Assembly: GCF_000725385.1 (NCBI RefSeq)
Contig: NZ_CP008884.1
Location: 2,976,001 to 3,040,000, forward strand
DNA from: Dyella japonica A8
Lineage (GTDB): Bacteria > Pseudomonadota > Gammaproteobacteria > Xanthomonadales > Rhodanobacteraceae
DNA length: 64,000 bases
Direction: 5' to 3'
Shown: one piece after another, positions 39,379 through 48,621 of the stretch
Position numbering within the stretch: the first letter of the stretch is position 1
Layout: the number at the start of each line of letters is the position of its first letter
Translations under genes and position numbers: made by a program
Notes under the pieces: generated by a model
Databases searched by the model: none
Seen by the model: the letters and a program-made list of their open reading frames with translations, nothing else
Told to the model about the DNA's origin: nothing

Positions 39379-39453
39379 GTCAAGCCGGCTCGAGTCGAGC
39401 CGGCTTTGGTCGAGCCGGGTTTAGTCGAGCCGGTTCTAGTCGAGCTTGTAGTC
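39379..39453. repeat. Five tandem 15-bp units spanning the receptor stop codon
   Basis: The units start at 39379, 39394, 39409, 39424 and 39439 with core GTCGAGCCGG (GTCAAGCCGG in the first, GTCGAGCTTG in the last). The rightmost unit contains the final codons of the TonB receptor (minus strand K-L-D-stop); the others are tandem copies of that 3' end, so L-D-stop recurs in frame (TAG, then TAA, then CAA). The 39382-39406 part forms a 12-bp-arm palindrome (AAGCCGGCTCGA-G-TCGAGCCGGCTT read in two halves) and may serve as a 3' hairpin. Confidence 0.8.
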
Positions 39454-42453
39454 AAACGTCAGGAACACTTCGCGGCCGTTGTACTCGCTGGCGGTCTGGC
39501 CCGTGGTGACGAACTCGAAGCCGCCGGAGTAGTACGGAATCGCACCGACCTTGTCGAAGATGTTGGAGACGGTGAGCTTCAGCTTGGTGTCCGGGTTGAT
39601 CTGCCAGCCAATCGCGGTGTTCCAGGTGATCCACACCGGCGTGCGGCCGCGGTAGGTGGTGTCGGCGACGGTCACGGGGTTGCCGTTGAGCGTTACCTGG
39701 CACACGCCGGTGCTGATCGACTCGGCACCGTTCTGGATGTTGACCATGCCCGGCTGGATGCCGTTGGGCAGCACGTTGCAGCCGGCGTAGTTGGGAGCAC
39801 GCATGCTGCCGTCGCGCACGCCGGAGATCGACACGTCCCAGTCGCCCTTGGTCCAGTCACCGATCCATGTCACGCGGCTAGCCACGTTGTTGAATCGCGT
39901 GTTCTGCAGCGGGTCGGAAGCCAGCACGCGCTGCTTGTACGAGAGGTTGTCGGTGTAGTTGATGTTGGCGCGGAAATCACCGTAGCTGTCGGTGTGGTAC
40001 TTGTAATCCAGCGTGGCATCGATACCGCTGACGTACAGCGACGCTTCGTTGATCGGGCCGGATTCCTCCGAGATGATCTGGCCAGCCGCGTTGCGCTGAA
40101 CCATCTGGGTGACCATGCTGCAGTAGGCCGAGCCCGGCACGTGTGCCGTATACGGCGACAGGGCCGAGGTGCCGCTGGCCTGCTGGCCGGTAAGACAGCC
40201 GGCTTCGTCGACCAGCACCGTGTCCTTGTCCAGGTACTGGATGGAGTTGTCCACACCCAGGTGCCAGTAGTCGGCGGACACCGACAGGCCTTGCACGCCC
40301 GGGACCTGCCACACGAAACCATAGGTCCAGGAGTGGCCGGTCTGCGGTTCAAGCAAGCGGCTGCCGTTCGTGTACAGGGTGTAGTACTGCGAGGTCGGGC
40401 GCTGTACCAGGTTGCACCACGTGCTGTTGGACTGGCCTGCCTTGATGGCGTTGATGCACTGCAGGGGGTCGATGTAATCACCCACCGGCGAGGTCGAGCC
40501 AGTCAGGTAGATCGCCTGCATGTCAGGCGCCTTGAAGTTGGTGTTGTAGCTGCCGCGCAGCAGCAGGCCACCATAGGGGCGCCATTCGATGCCCGTGCCC
40601 CAGGTCTTGGCCAGGTCGGCCTTGCTGGCGTCGTTGTACTGGTCGCCGCGACCGGAAATGGTCCAGGTCACCGAATCGAGGATGGGTACGCGGAACTCGG
40701 TGCCCAGCGAATAACGCTGGCGGGTGCCACCACCGGTGAGGTATGCGCCGAACGGGTTCTGGAACGTGTTGGGGTCCTGTGCGCGCGGATCGGGCGAGAG
40801 CTTGAAGCCGTTGTGCGCAGCTTCAAGCACGGCCGCCCAGCCGATGGCTTCTTCTGCCCACGGCAGCTTGAACAGGTCGCCGTTGACGCGCAACTGTGCC
40901 TGGTCCAGCCACGACGAGGAGGTGTTCTCGCCGCTGACCGCGAACTGGCCGTAGTCCTGCTTGGTGATCGGGTTCCACCAGCGCTGCCAGTTCATGGCGT
41001 AGATGGGGTTGCCGCTGCCGTCGGTACCCAGCTGCGGGCCGAGGAAGAAGTTGTTCATGGCCTGGGCGTTGTAGCCCGTGAAGTCCTCACGCACGGTGTA
41101 CTTCTGGCTGTTGAGGTTCAGGTCCCAGTTGAAGCGGCCGTCGAATACCGTGCCGCGCAGGCCGACCTGCAGGTTCCAGTTCTGCTCGCGGTCGTGGGTG
41201 TTGGCCGTGGAGCCGATTTCCTGCGCGGTCAGCTGGCGGATGGCCTGGCTGATGACCTGGCCGGTGGTCTGGTCGAAGAACTGGCCGGTGCCATAGCCGT
41301 TCAACTGGGTGTTGGAGATGCCCACCGTGTCGTACAGGGCGGCGGAGGCATAAGCCTGCAGGCCGTTGCTGAAGTCGTACTCGCCGGACACGTAGCCATC
41401 GGTGTTGCGGCTGCCGCCGGTGAGCACCCAGTTCTGGAACAGGTGCGGCTGCGCGCAGTAATAACCGTTGTCGGTCACGCCGGTGATCTGCGTGCCGTTG
41501 GTGGTGACGCTATGCGACTGGGCCAGCTGCGAGTTGGTGAACTTTCCGCAGGTGCCCGCCGGTGGCGTGATGTACTGGCCGTTGGCGTTCATCGCGGAGA
41601 GGGCGATGGCGCCGGCCGCGTCGTACTGATAGCCGAACATGCGTGCCGCCGGACCCCAGGCGCCGTAACCCGCACTGGACACCGAGTCCTGGTACGGACG
41701 ATCCATGCCCCACAGCGCGGTGCGGTTGGACTTCTCCAGGTTGTAGAGCACTTTCCAGTTGCTGCCGGAATGGCCGCCGAAGAAGTTGATGTCACCGTAG
41801 TTGCGGCCGCCGCGCGTGGCGGTGCCACCGGTGACCTGCAGCTCGTCACCCTGGTAGTTCTTCTTCAGGATCACGTTGACCACGCCCGCCACGGCGTCCG
41901 AACCGTAGATCGACGAGGCGCCGGTGGCCAGGATCTCGACACGGTCGACCATGCCGGTGGGAATGTTGTTGTAGTTCTGGAAGTTGCTCTGCTTGTTCAG
42001 CGGCTGGGGGTAATCGACGATGCGATGGCCGTCGATCATCAGCAGGCTGAAGCCGGGGCCCAGGCCGCGCAGGTTGACCGAGCGCGCATTGACCGAGCTG
42101 GAACCCCAGGAGGCCGAGTCCGACTGCTGCTGGCCGACCTGCGGCAAGGAGTCGAGGAATTCCCACAAGGTGGTGAAGCCCTGCTGCTTGATCTGCTCGC
42201 CGGTGATGGCGATCACGGGGGCCTGTCCTTCGACCTGCGCGCGCGGAATCATCGAGCCGGTGACGGTGACTTCCTTCAGGTTGATCGCTTTCTTCGTCTT
42301 GCCGGACGACTGGGTGTCGTCTTGCGGCGACGGCTGCTGTGCCGCCGGCTGATCGCTGCCGGACGATGCCGACTGCGCGAAAACGTGTGGCGTGAAAAGC
42401 GCCAGTGCCAGAGAACTGGCCAGTACGCCGCGTCGCAAACCGATGTTGTTCAT
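39436..42453 (-). CDS. TonB-dependent receptor of the fucose/glycan locus
   Basis: 1005 aa from an ATG preceded by GGGGAGGAA. The signal peptide is LASSLALALFTPHVFAQ-S. A Gln/Ser-rich linker, TonB box LKEVTVTGSMIPRAQ, plug (VNLRGLGPGFSLLMIDGHRI, ATGASSIYGSDAVAGVVNVI) and a long barrel ending REVFLTFDYKLD follow. It belongs to the large carbohydrate-type receptors common in Xanthomonadales. Position beside the IclR regulator, fucP and glycosidases indicates import of fucosylated oligosaccharides. A palindromic motif shared with other fucose-locus promoters lies 341-369 bp upstream of the ATG, so the transcript should have a long leader. Confidence 0.92.
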   Translation of the reverse strand: MNNIGLRRGVLASSLALALFTPHVFAQSASSGSDQPAAQQPSPQDDTQSSGKTKKAINLKEVTVTGSMIPRAQVEGQAPVIAITGEQIKQQGFTTLWEFLDSLPQVGQQQSDSASWGSSSVNARSVNLRGLGPGFSLLMIDGHRIVDYPQPLNKQSNFQNYNNIPTGMVDRVEILATGASSIYGSDAVAGVVNVILKKNYQGDELQVTGGTATRGGRNYGDINFFGGHSGSNWKVLYNLEKSNRTALWGMDRPYQDSVSSAGYGAWGPAARMFGYQYDAAGAIALSAMNANGQYITPPAGTCGKFTNSQLAQSHSVTTNGTQITGVTDNGYYCAQPHLFQNWVLTGGSRNTDGYVSGEYDFSNGLQAYASAALYDTVGISNTQLNGYGTGQFFDQTTGQVISQAIRQLTAQEIGSTANTHDREQNWNLQVGLRGTVFDGRFNWDLNLNSQKYTVREDFTGYNAQAMNNFFLGPQLGTDGSGNPIYAMNWQRWWNPITKQDYGQFAVSGENTSSSWLDQAQLRVNGDLFKLPWAEEAIGWAAVLEAAHNGFKLSPDPRAQDPNTFQNPFGAYLTGGGTRQRYSLGTEFRVPILDSVTWTISGRGDQYNDASKADLAKTWGTGIEWRPYGGLLLRGSYNTNFKAPDMQAIYLTGSTSPVGDYIDPLQCINAIKAGQSNSTWCNLVQRPTSQYYTLYTNGSRLLEPQTGHSWTYGFVWQVPGVQGLSVSADYWHLGVDNSIQYLDKDTVLVDEAGCLTGQQASGTSALSPYTAHVPGSAYCSMVTQMVQRNAAGQIISEESGPINEASLYVSGIDATLDYKYHTDSYGDFRANINYTDNLSYKQRVLASDPLQNTRFNNVASRVTWIGDWTKGDWDVSISGVRDGSMRAPNYAGCNVLPNGIQPGMVNIQNGAESISTGVCQVTLNGNPVTVADTTYRGRTPVWITWNTAIGWQINPDTKLKLTVSNIFDKVGAIPYYSGGFEFVTTGQTASEYNGREVFLTFDYKLD

Positions 42454-43001
42454 GGTGGTTCCTCCCCGGGAAGCTTCAATGTTGTGATTGCTGTTGAGTA
42501 AGCGCTCGCCAGCTCGATTCACTTCTTGTGCGCTGTGTTCTTTTGCCTGCACCGGCCTGCTGTTGCAGTCCCCTGACCGGGGCAGGCGTTTCGGGCTGCC
42601 TTGCCCGCGACAAAGCCATGAATCGGCTCCGTCGGCTTTTCTCCTTGCCGTCCGCTAGCGATGCGATCTCTGTTGTTCTGGACTTCCCTCCCGCATGAGC
42701 CGCTGCCTGGCTGCATCTCCGGCGCATGCCCCCGCATGCGGTCGCTACAGGCGGCCTTGCTGCGCCGCGTTCCGGGTTTTCGTCAGGCTGGATTCATATA
42801 CGAACTAATGGTTCATATTTGATTCCTGAGTGAGTTAAAGGCCGAAACTGGATCGATGCAAGTTGCAGCGCAGCATTGGGTGTAGTCGCGGCGCGACAGC
42901 CAGTCTTTCCATGGATGGGCGGAACGGTTAGCCCGGTGAGCCCCGGGGCGGCTACGGCATCGTGGACGCCACACCCTGCGGGATGGTTTGGCCGGGTGCC
43001 C
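42454..43001. other. 548-bp promoter and leader region of the TonB receptor
   Basis: No gene is seen. On the minus strand a possible promoter (TTTAAC, 16 nt, TATGAA) overlaps the palindrome at 42794-42822. If used, it gives a leader of about 340 nt before the receptor ATG. Short frames within it lack coding character. The remaining 180 bp lead to the 3' end of the IclR gene. Confidence 0.45.
42794..42822 (-). promoter_or_regulatory. Candidate IclR operator 1 (TonB receptor promoter)
   Basis: Arms TCATATACGAAC (42794-42805) and GTTCATATTTGA (42811-42822), spacer TAATG, agree at 10 of 12 paired positions. The right arm recurs upstream of the IclR gene and of the glycosidase operon. It overlaps the likely -10 region, as expected for a repressor site. 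Confidence 0.55.
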
Positions 43002-43781
43002 TCAGTTCCCCAGCGAAGCCGTGGGGCGATGGGCCAGCGCTTCTGTCACTTCGTTGGCTGCCTCGATGAGCAGCCGGGTGGTGGTGGCCATGTTCATCGT
43101 GGAGCCGCGCCGCTCGATGAAGGGAATGGTCATCGCGCAGATGGCATGGCCGTGTTGCATGACCGGTGCCGAGATATCGGTGACGCCATCGACCACCTGG
43201 CTGGGGATGGTGGCCACGCCGGCAGCGCGAATGCCGCTGATCGCCTTGTCGAGCGTCGGGCGGCGCAGCTGGGGTTCGTGCTCGATCATCATGCCGAACC
43301 AGCGTTCGCGCGTGGCGTCGTCCTGCCACGCCAGCAGCACGTGGCCGGAGGCGGAGTGGGACATCGGCCGGCGGTGGCCCACGCGCACCACCAGTCCGAT
43401 CTCGCCTGGCGGGTCGACGCGCGCAATCACCACGATCTGCTCCTGCGAAGGCACGACCAGGTGGCAGGACTGGTCGATGTCATCCGCCAGCCGGTGCATG
43501 ACGGGCAGGGCGGTTTCCACCAGGTTCTTTACCGGCGGCTGTTCCATCCCCAGCCGGAACAGCCGGGGCGTGAGCGAATAGCGCCCCTCGCCATCGGGGC
43601 GGCTGATGTAGTCGCGTTCTTCCAGCACCTGGAGCATGCGGAATATTTCGCCGCGCGAACGACCCACGCCTTCCGAAATTTCCGCAATGGTCAGCGGGGC
43701 GACGGCGCGCGCCAGCAGCTCAAGGATGTCCAGCCCTTTGTCGAGGGCGGGAGCGCGGTATTTGGGAGACTCTGCGGCCAT
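43002..43781 (-). CDS. IclR family regulator of the fucose locus
   Basis: 259 aa. The N-terminal winged helix-turn-helix (LDILELLARAVAPLTIAEIS, VGRSRGEIFRMLQVLEERD) precedes the effector-binding GAF-like domain (CHLVVPSQEQIVVIARVDPP, SASGHVLLAWQDD, GVTDISAPVMQHGHAICAMT). IclR proteins bind pathway intermediates and usually repress. It is divergent from fucP, and its own promoter (TATAAT on the minus strand at 43878-43883) overlaps a copy of the shared motif, suggesting autoregulation. The likely effector is L-fucose or a downstream acid (inference). Confidence 0.92.
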   Translation of the reverse strand: MAAESPKYRAPALDKGLDILELLARAVAPLTIAEISEGVGRSRGEIFRMLQVLEERDYISRPDGEGRYSLTPRLFRLGMEQPPVKNLVETALPVMHRLADDIDQSCHLVVPSQEQIVVIARVDPPGEIGLVVRVGHRRPMSHSASGHVLLAWQDDATRERWFGMMIEHEPQLRRPTLDKAISGIRAAGVATIPSQVVDGVTDISAPVMQHGHAICAMTIPFIERRGSTMNMATTTRLLIEAANEVTEALAHRPTASLGN

Positions 43782-43896: not shown

Positions 43897-43955
43897 ACAC
43901 ATGTCGCGCCCGGTGCAGCAGGGCCACATTCGCCAATCGACGGAGGATGACATCT

Positions 43956-45256
43956 ATGCACCCACAAGCCGCATCGACAACGGCGGGTGGTCACTTCCGG
44001 AGCAGCACGCCACTGCTGCCGCTTGCGCTGATCGTAAGTCTTTTTTTCTGTGGGGCGTGGCTAACAACCTCAACGATGTGCTGGTGGCGCAGTTCAAGAA
44101 GGCGTTCACGCTATCGGATTTCCAGGCCGCGCTGGTGCAAAGCGCCTTCTATCTTGGCTATTTCATCGTCGCGCTCCCCGCGGGTGCCTACATGCGGCGA
44201 TATGGCTACAAGTCCGCCGTGGTGTTCGGCTTGTGCCTGTATGGCGTGGGCGCCTTGTTGTTCTGGCCGGCGGCGGCATACGCCACCTATGCCATGTTCC
44301 TTGCGGCCTTGTTTGTCATCGCGTGCGGGCTGGCGTTTCTCGAGACTTCGGCAAACCCCTACGTCACCTTACTGGGGCCGGCATCGTCGGCGGCTTCACG
44401 ACTCAATCTCGCCCAGGCCTTCAATCCGCTGGGGTCGATCGCGGGCGTGCTGATCGGACAGCATTTCATCTTTACGGGCGTGGAGCACACGCCTGCGGAA
44501 CTCGCTGCCATGAGCACGGGCGCACGCGAGGCCTTCATGAAGAGCGAGGCCGCGGCCGTGCAGCTGCCTTACCTGGTGATCGGCCTGGGCGTGATCGTCT
44601 GGGCCGTGGTGATCGTGTTGACGCGCTTCCCTTCGGTGGCGCACCACGAGGAGGGCGCGCCAGCGCCGCTCAACGTGCTCAGGCGCCTGCTGCGTGACGG
44701 GCGTCTGCTCGGCGCTGTCGCGGCGCAGTTCTTTTACGTGGGTGCGCAGGTCGCCGTGTTCAGTCACATGATCCGCTACGCCGAGGCGACCATGCCGGGC
44801 ACCGTGGACAAGGCCGCCGCCGGCTTCGTCACGGCGGGGCTGGTCTGCTTCATGGTGGGGCGCTTTGCCGGTGCGGCACTGATGAAACACCTGAAGGCGT
44901 CGCGCGTGCTCGCGCTGTTCGCCTTGATCAACGTGGTGCTGATGGTCATGGCGGCCTTCGTTCCTGGCCGTCTGGGCATCTACGCCTTGGTGGTGTCGAG
45001 CTTCTTCATGTCGGTGATGTATCCCACCATCTTCGCGCTGGGCGTGGAGGGGCGTGGCGATGACGAGCGCAAGTTCGCCGCCGCACTGCTGGTGATGGCC
45101 ATCATCGGCGGCGCGGTGCTCACTGCGGCCATGGGCGTGGCATCGGACCGTGTCGGCATCGCGCACGCGATGCTCGTGCCGGCCGTCTGTTTCATCGCGA
45201 TCTTCCTGTTTGCGCAGCAGCAGTGGCAGCGCGTGACGGCCGGGGCGGTGGCATGA
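43956..45256 (+). CDS. fucP: FucP-like L-fucose:H+ symporter, read in two frames joined at a T7 slippery site
   Basis: The ATG at 43956 follows GGAGGA at 8 nt. The first 28-31 codons give MHPQAASTT... and the start of helix 1, PLLPLALIVSLFF. The rest of a normal 12-helix permease is in the -1 frame: LWGVANNLNDVLVAQFKKAF, QAALVQSAFYLGYFIVALPA, CGLAFLETSANPYVTLLGP, RLNLAQAFNPLGSIAGVLIG and GRFAGAALMKHLKASRVL. E. coli FucP reads CSLFFLWAVANNLNDILL across this point, so the junction rebuilds the family sequence exactly. The crossing is T_TTT_TTC at 44042-44048, a canonical -1 slippery heptamer. Without the shift the first frame ends near 44453 as nonsense. Either it is programmed or slippage-tolerant, or one T has been lost (mutation or sequencing error). 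It imports L-fucose. Confidence 0.85.
44042..44048 (+). other. Slippery heptamer in fucP (T_TTT_TTC)
   Basis: In the initiating frame the codons are CTT TTT TTC, with seven T at 44041-44047 followed by C. Simultaneous -1 slippage of tRNAs on TTT-TTC to TTT-TTT leads straight into CTG TGG GGC, the permease frame. No strong downstream stem or upstream Shine-Dalgarno stimulator is obvious by eye. Confidence 0.6.
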
Positions 45257-45603
45257 ACTGGCAATGCCTGGCGCTGGACCTGCGCGACGATCCCGCGCTC
45301 ATTGCCGAGTACGAACGCTGGCATCGTCGCGAGCACATCTGGCCGGAGATCGTCGCATCGATTCGCGAGGCGGGCATCCTGGACATGCAGATCTTCCGCA
45401 CGGGTACACGGCTGGTCATGCTGATGCGCGTGTCGCCGGATTTCGATGCCGGCGCCAAGGCGGCAGCGGACGCGGCCAGCGAGCGCGTGCAGGCATGGGA
45501 GGCATTGATGTCCACCTTCCAGCAGCCGCTGCCGTGGGCGGCCGCGGGACAGAAGTGGGTGCCGATGCAGCGGATTTTCGACCTGGCCGAATGCCGGGCC
45601 TGA
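45253..45603 (+). CDS. L-rhamnose/L-fucose mutarotase family protein (DUF718)
   Basis: 116 aa. The ATG overlaps the permease stop (ATGA). Family motifs: LIAEYERWHRREHIWPEIVA with the active-site His, GILDMQIFRTGTRLVMLMRV, QAWEALMSTFQQPLP and KWVPMQRIFDL. It is of the rhamnose-mutarotase (RhaM) fold; in L-fucose loci of this type it interconverts alpha and beta anomers, feeding the dehydrogenase. Tight coupling to fucP supports L-fucose as substrate. Confidence 0.88.
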   Translation: MNWQCLALDLRDDPALIAEYERWHRREHIWPEIVASIREAGILDMQIFRTGTRLVMLMRVSPDFDAGAKAAADAASERVQAWEALMSTFQQPLPWAAAGQKWVPMQRIFDLAECRA

Positions 45604-46947: not shown

Positions 46948-48540
46948 TTAGAGAAGTGGACTGTTTCCCTGCTCGCGGGTCGCCTCGGGACCGTACTGGA
47001 GCAACTGGATGCTTGGATGCAGTGTGGCGTAGTCCACGCGTTTCCCGGAAGCATCCTCGGCCTGACCGCGCCAGAACAACTGGCCAGCCGCAGGGATGGC
47101 GTCCTTGATGAGTCCGTTGACGGTCGTCGCGTAGCTGTAGTCCTTGGTGCCCTTGTCATTCCACACGGCAATCTGCCCACCGACCGGCCCGGTCGATGCA
47201 CTGCTGCCTGCTGGCAGGCGCTTGTCCCAACCGTCGTACAGCGCATCGCCGCGCAGGCCGTTCGGATTGAAGTACGAAGGGCCAAGCGGGACGACATACC
47301 AGTCGCCGAATGACTCGACCCAGGTGAATCCCCGGTCGCCCCAATTGATCTTTGCCTCGTCTCCCCAGTTGATCCAGCGCTGGACGACGAAGGATTTGTC
47401 CAGCCCGCCAGCCATCTCGGCACTACCCCAGATTTCGATCTTCTTGCCGTGTTGCTGCAGGAAATGGCCCAGCTTATTCAGGTAGTCAACCTGCGCCGCC
47501 AGATCGACTTTGCCGCCGTTGACGTTGACCTCGTCCCCGCCAATGTGGATGACGCTGGATCGAAACCAGGGAAGGAATTCAGTAAAGACCGACTCGACGT
47601 AGCCGAGTGTTTGCGGCTTGGTCGGATCAAGTGTGCCGCCCGCAGGCGAGTCACCCGGATAAGCAAGATCCGGGCGCGCAAGCACAAACGCCCCCGAATG
47701 CCCTGGCGTGTCAATCTCCGGAACAATGGTGACGCCGTTGGCGGCTGCGGTCTGTTCCAGCGCGTTCCAGTCGGCACGGGTGTAGTAGTGACCATCCACA
47801 GGCACCAGCCCGGCAAAGGCAGGGTTGTCACTCTTCAGGCGAAACGCCCGGCTCGACCATGATTTCTTGTCGTCGCTATGCACCTGATCATTGAGGTGGA
47901 GATGCAGCGTGTTGAGCTTGTACCAACCCATGAAGCGCATATAGCTCTGCAAGAAGGCGACGTCAGCGAATTTCCTCCCGACGTCGAACATGACGGAGCG
48001 TTCGCGATAACGCGGAAAGTCGACGGCATGGCCGCGAGGAAGCGCGTGGAGTTTTCCCTCGGGCCGGCTCTCCAGCACGAGCATCTGGAGCAACGTGCGC
48101 CCGGCGTAGAACACGCCATTCTGGGTGTTCGCACAGAGGGTGACGTGAGCATCGATATCAAGCGTGTACCCCTCCGGACCAATGGACGGGGACGAAGACC
48201 CGCACTCGCCGATACGCAGAACGATGTCATGGCGCGTGGCGTGGTTTCCGATCGCCACAGCTGCCTTCATCCCGGTCAGTGACTGGATATCGCGGGCCAG
48301 CTCTTCAGCCATCGGCTTGAGTGCAGTGGCGTGCGCTGGGTCGATGAGCAGGCGGGTGTGGCCGTCTACCCCCCATTTACCTTCTCCGCCTTGCCACTGC
48401 TGGAGGGTTGGCACCACCAGCGGCGCGGCGTTGCCCGATTCCGCGGACGCGCCGCCCACCTTTGCTTCACCAGCGATGCTCTGTGTGGCAAGCAGGAATA
48501 AACACGCTCCCCACGCGACCCTGCGACTCATCCCCGCCAT
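46948..48540 (-). CDS. Secreted GH20 beta-N-acetylhexosaminidase
   Basis: 530 aa from the ATG preceded by GGAGG (48540; the next Met three codons on is also possible). The signal peptide is RRVAWGACLFLLATQSIAG-E. An N-terminal GH20b-like domain (HTRLLIDPAHATALKPMAEE) precedes the catalytic barrel: MFDVGRKFADVAFLQSYMRF, LNTLHLHLNDQ, IVPEIDTPGHSGAF, and the acid pair in SSVIHIGGDEVNVNGG. It removes terminal beta-GlcNAc or GalNAc. It lacks the C-terminal extension of the second GH20 at 57.8 kb and sits between repeat copies b and c, possibly acquired as a unit. Confidence 0.92.
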   Translation of the reverse strand: MAGMSRRVAWGACLFLLATQSIAGEAKVGGASAESGNAAPLVVPTLQQWQGGEGKWGVDGHTRLLIDPAHATALKPMAEELARDIQSLTGMKAAVAIGNHATRHDIVLRIGECGSSSPSIGPEGYTLDIDAHVTLCANTQNGVFYAGRTLLQMLVLESRPEGKLHALPRGHAVDFPRYRERSVMFDVGRKFADVAFLQSYMRFMGWYKLNTLHLHLNDQVHSDDKKSWSSRAFRLKSDNPAFAGLVPVDGHYYTRADWNALEQTAAANGVTIVPEIDTPGHSGAFVLARPDLAYPGDSPAGGTLDPTKPQTLGYVESVFTEFLPWFRSSVIHIGGDEVNVNGGKVDLAAQVDYLNKLGHFLQQHGKKIEIWGSAEMAGGLDKSFVVQRWINWGDEAKINWGDRGFTWVESFGDWYVVPLGPSYFNPNGLRGDALYDGWDKRLPAGSSASTGPVGGQIAVWNDKGTKDYSYATTVNGLIKDAIPAAGQLFWRGQAEDASGKRVDYATLHPSIQLLQYGPEATREQGNSPLL

Positions 48541-48621
48541 TGAAACGCCACCTCCGCTCCAGGGTATCCATGATCTTTCGATGGCCGATCGTACCCTCAA
48601 TCAATCCGCGGATGCCGAGGT

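Follow-up and report, generated by a model that had tools for sequence, protein, structure and literature searches.

A one-base frame break in fucP of Dyella japonica A8, probably an artefact of assembly in an ordinary gene

Programmed -1 frameshifting of the dnaX type takes place at slippery heptamers of the form X_XXY_YYZ, and T runs are known sites of replication slippage. Transcriptional slippage has been tied to A/T runs of about 9 or more, with shorter runs possibly slipping in some bacteria (PMC1088944). In the excerpted text of the GeneTack survey, a conserved site is needed to call a shift programmed, and singletons validated by BLASTp are expected to be sequencing errors and not genuine indels (PMC3711429). 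A one-base deletion in a fucose cluster is described, in the excerpted report, for Cj0489 (aldehyde dehydrogenase) of Campylobacter jejuni NCTC11168, with other strains intact (PMC9100392).

Here, we analysed a stretch of 64,000 nucleotides from D. japonica A8 (the window, to which all coordinates refer unless a contig is named), in which fucP is divided between two reading frames. Compared with the FucP family (TIGR00885), the window's gene has a one-base break in helix 1, the sole such case among the 88 loci examined (the window and 87 relatives). The site resembles dnaX-type frameshifting in having a slippery-form heptamer in phase, and it differs in that there is no conserved shift, no downstream structure and no sign of a useful second product. 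With the GeneTack singletons, as the excerpt describes them, it shares a lone broken sequence with unbroken homologues, and no difference was noticed (PMC3711429).

Reading frames of fucP

The start codon of fucP, an ATG at 43956 on the forward strand, is preceded by a GGAGG ribosome-binding site (43942–43946, forward), and the first 28 codons (MHPQ...IVS, 43956–44039, forward) lie in frame 0, from the start also used by relatives (the same start and phase were found by script in 6/7 genus relatives; the start in L014 was not located). Frame 0 then reads ...IVS-CTT-TTT-TTC-TGT across the break and continues (MHPQ...LALIVSLFFCGAW) to a stop at 44451–44453, and no NCBIfam model matched its product at E 0.001. 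From the sequence and the comparison with genus relatives, the break point is a run of seven T (T7, 44041–44047, forward), which overlaps the heptamer T_TTT_TTC (44042–44048, forward) in frame-0 phase at the conserved Leu-Phe-Phe codons. The remainder of the gene (LWGVANNLND..., 44048–45256, forward) is in the -1 frame, which stays open from the T run to a TGA at 45254–45256, and its product scores 410.7 bits against the TIGR00885 fucP model (cut-off 280.4), placing it within the family. Judged by sequence, the -1 frame product is clearly a FucP (L-fucose:H+ symporter of the MFS). All of this bears out the sequence-only reading in its description of the locus: the ribosome site before the ATG, the end of frame 0 near 44453, the remaining helices in the -1 frame from 44048, the phase of the heptamer, and the rebuilding of the conserved FucP sequence by a -1 shift, which restores LFFLWG. 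A second fucP that might stand in for the broken one was considered and rejected, as TIGR00885 has four matches in the genome and only the window's fucP is above the cut-off, the other three falling below it.

The site in relatives and in protein P0004

The 87 relatives comprised loci from 7 genus genomes, obtained from a search of 20 genomes in which 8 (the window's own counted) matched at E 1e-60, and 80 other loci (the best 80 of 588). For the script to score a locus as unbroken, one open frame had to span 380 residues or more, and its start codon had to lie no fewer than 14 codons ahead of Leu-Phe-Phe. The break was found in 0/87: 86 were unbroken by script, and the remaining one, L062, has a variant motif (LFLMWG) and was settled by an alignment that runs through the break position without a change of frame. 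Compared with the window, the 7 genus relatives have one more base in the stretch at the T run. Of the 86 relatives whose motif could be read, two (L013 and L085) carry the in-phase T_TTT_TTC, and L014 and L083 carry T_TTT_TTT at the same place; all four genes are unbroken. The sequence-only reading had held that relatives with an uninterrupted frame and no slippery run would point to an error or a strain-specific mutation. The main part of this, the uninterrupted frame, holds for all 87 relatives examined; four of them carry a slippery-form heptamer. LFFLWGVANNLND is common to the window's fucP and its relatives. The T run is not conserved among the relatives, and T_TTT_TTC is best read, from this comparison, as one codon choice for Leu-Phe-Phe and not as a conserved slippery site. 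The proposal that the two frames are joined at a programmed slippery site is thus unsupported, given that every relative examined is unbroken, that slippery-form heptamers are rare and sit in unbroken genes, and that an intact protein (P0004, below) exists.

Among protein matches (the best 120 of 6838), 120/120 continue past the site as an unbroken chain, as scored by script for 119 and by eye for P0081, a later-start call that still spans the site. As a list of called proteins is biased towards unbroken genes, this is weaker evidence than the DNA loci. Over the 402 downstream codons, the window differs from the 7 genus relatives at 122–163 third positions and 20–29 second positions (for L012, there are 31, 22 and 133 differences at codon positions 1, 2 and 3). 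As the differences are mostly at third positions, fucP looks fully constrained at the protein level, at least up to a very recent time, with no decay beyond the single break.

P0004 is a protein of 433 aa that equals, letter for letter, the window's 31 residues before the join plus the 402 after it. One contig, 171,431 bases long and distinct from the complete-genome contig, is the only one that carries it. The complete genome of D. japonica A8 (CP008884; 4,831,185 bases) was assembled from shotgun and paired-end reads of a 454 GS Junior at 22.0x, with Sanger sequencing at gaps; its paper lists 13 frameshifted genes and notes that the strain already had a draft genome (PMC4241664). The placement of P0004 is in keeping with fucP being broken in the complete assembly and whole in a draft, and we infer that it comes from the same strain as the window, although another strain, or a gene caller that joins frames, could instead be its source.

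Miscount, deletion or slippage

A frame break that falls on T7 is what would be expected from any homopolymer indel, biological or technical. With 87/87 relatives unbroken (including the best 80 of 588 loci), P0004 intact and the assembly based on 454 reads, whose main error, as stated in an excerpted source, is the homopolymer indel (PMC3902414), a sequencing error is favoured, and the break is probably an artefact of this kind in an ordinary fucP, most likely a 454 homopolymer undercall. The cell's fucP would then be an ordinary single-frame L-fucose:H+ symporter gene, its T run within the Leu-Phe-Phe codons would have been called one base short in the assembly, most probably through Roche 454 undercalling, and the organism itself would show no frame change. 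We infer that the break sits in the assembly and not in the strain. Against a sequencing error, the general error rate of the assembly does not look high, in that frame breaks look rare in scans of low sensitivity. More generally, caution is called for where a 454-based 'complete' genome shows a frame break at a heptamer that looks slippery, as a homopolymer miscount can explain it.

An unlikely biological alternative is that the strain's fucP recently lost one base by replication slippage. The break is seen in the window's sequence alone among the 88 loci (including the best 80 of 588), the gene is free of decay elsewhere, as it would be with a very young mutation, and a T run is a site at which replication slips. 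There is also precedent for a strain-specific one-base deletion in a fucose cluster: in the excerpted account of Cj0489, as here, one strain carries the deletion in a fucose gene and others are intact, but the gene is a different one and the deletion is backed by 23 sequenced isolates of the strain, compared with one assembly for fucP (PMC9100392). On the other side stand the identical intact protein P0004 on another contig, the neighbouring genes inspected, which are all open, and the published assembly method, which favours error. If the deletion were real, the permease would be lost and the mutarotase gene that overlaps fucP might be expressed less; a real break is most likely to be a newly arisen loss-of-function allele.

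Recoding would have a ribosome shift by -1 at T_TTT_TTC, or RNA polymerase slip on T7, to yield functional FucP. The slippery heptamer is present in the correct zero-frame phase, a -1 shift there rebuilds the conserved LFFLWG, and corrective frameshifting exists in principle, according to an excerpted source (PMC5009743). However, the frame transition is conserved in 0/87 relatives (the best 80 of 588 loci and the 7 genus genomes), two of which carry the same in-phase heptamer in unbroken genes, so that conserved recoding in the genus and beyond was rejected. Downstream RNA folds no better than shuffles (pseudoknot-free folding of three window stretches gave z of +2.1, +1.6 and +0.6, and the L013 stretch folded alongside gave +1.9), and a stimulatory structure after T7 was rejected on these positive scores. 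By eye, no Shine-Dalgarno-like stretch is present at 44020–44040. For transcriptional slippage, the run is 7 T, short of a conserved A/T run of about 9 or more, and it is not conserved. No description of fucP recoding appears in the titles and abstract openings on fucP and frameshifting among the matches listed, and the excerpts of PMC7311316 and PMC6082245 contain nothing bearing on the break. Functional FucP through either kind of slippage is very improbable. The variant in which the strain is truly one base short, and a low level of slippage at the in-phase heptamer T_TTT_TTC still supplies some FucP, is likewise highly implausible; if true, it would be a case of bacterial chromosomal corrective frameshifting at an accidental site. 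In sum, two of the four options offered by the sequence-only reading, sequencing error and one-base deletion, are favoured, whereas programmed frameshifting and transcriptional slippage are very improbable.

Neighbouring genes and frame breaks elsewhere

The stop of fucP overlaps (ATGA) the ATG of a RhaM-family mutarotase gene (45253–45603, forward; PF05336, 103.2 bits). An IclR-family regulator gene (43002–43781, reverse) is divergent from fucP, and a TonB-dependent receptor gene lies at 39436–42552 (reverse); both are open, as assigned from frame and family match. The product of a hexosaminidase gene (46951–48600, reverse) is 100% identical over 96% to the protein P0244, the runner-up match in the protein database being 86% identical. 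For the IclR regulator, the best identity in the protein database is 93%.

T7 at 44041–44047 is the only homopolymer of at least 7 in the 64-kb window. Across 324 kb of the window genome there are 21 such runs, of which 2 lie inside predicted coding segments, T7 being one of them. G runs of 13, 9 and 10 were observed at G000:C1:3072975, 3110745 and 3146446, outside predicted coding segments.

Three scans were run on the window genome for other frame breaks. Orthologue scans gave few pairs owing to poor synteny (18 for the relative G005 and 12 for G007). With G005, two pairs were flagged, namely fucP and one judged to be an antisense-ORF artefact; with G007, no pair was flagged and fucP was missed. 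A codon-usage scan of the 324 kb gave 6 frame switches, with tails of 9–69 bases as at gene overlaps, and also missed fucP, so that 1/3 scans flagged it. The same codon-usage scan gave 8 switches in 360 kb of G005 and 3 in 184 kb of G007. In test losses, the codon-usage scan noticed 57/98 at least 200 bases from a segment end, 9/23 at 100–200 bases and 3/29 nearer; given this low sensitivity, no firm assembly error rate was drawn. Among family matches across the whole genome, internal stops were absent from the 19 rows for RND and the 46 for the TonB-receptor barrel. One RND protein appears as two neighbouring pieces of equal open-frame length, and a few RND and TonB rows are partial (for example, 3461206–3461838 in a 461-residue frame). 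Internal stops occur in 3 of the genome's 48 MFS match rows; those at G000:C1:4655666–4656331 and 1481572–1483017 are possible pseudogenes. Frame breaks elsewhere in the assembly thus seem rare, as far as these low-sensitivity scans reach and in line with the 13 published, and this rarity does not by itself separate error from mutation at fucP. In G005, a gene at G005:C1:1830507–1831557 (in L100) is two-framed near a C run and open in both the window genome and G007, and it is likely an indel similar to the fucP break.
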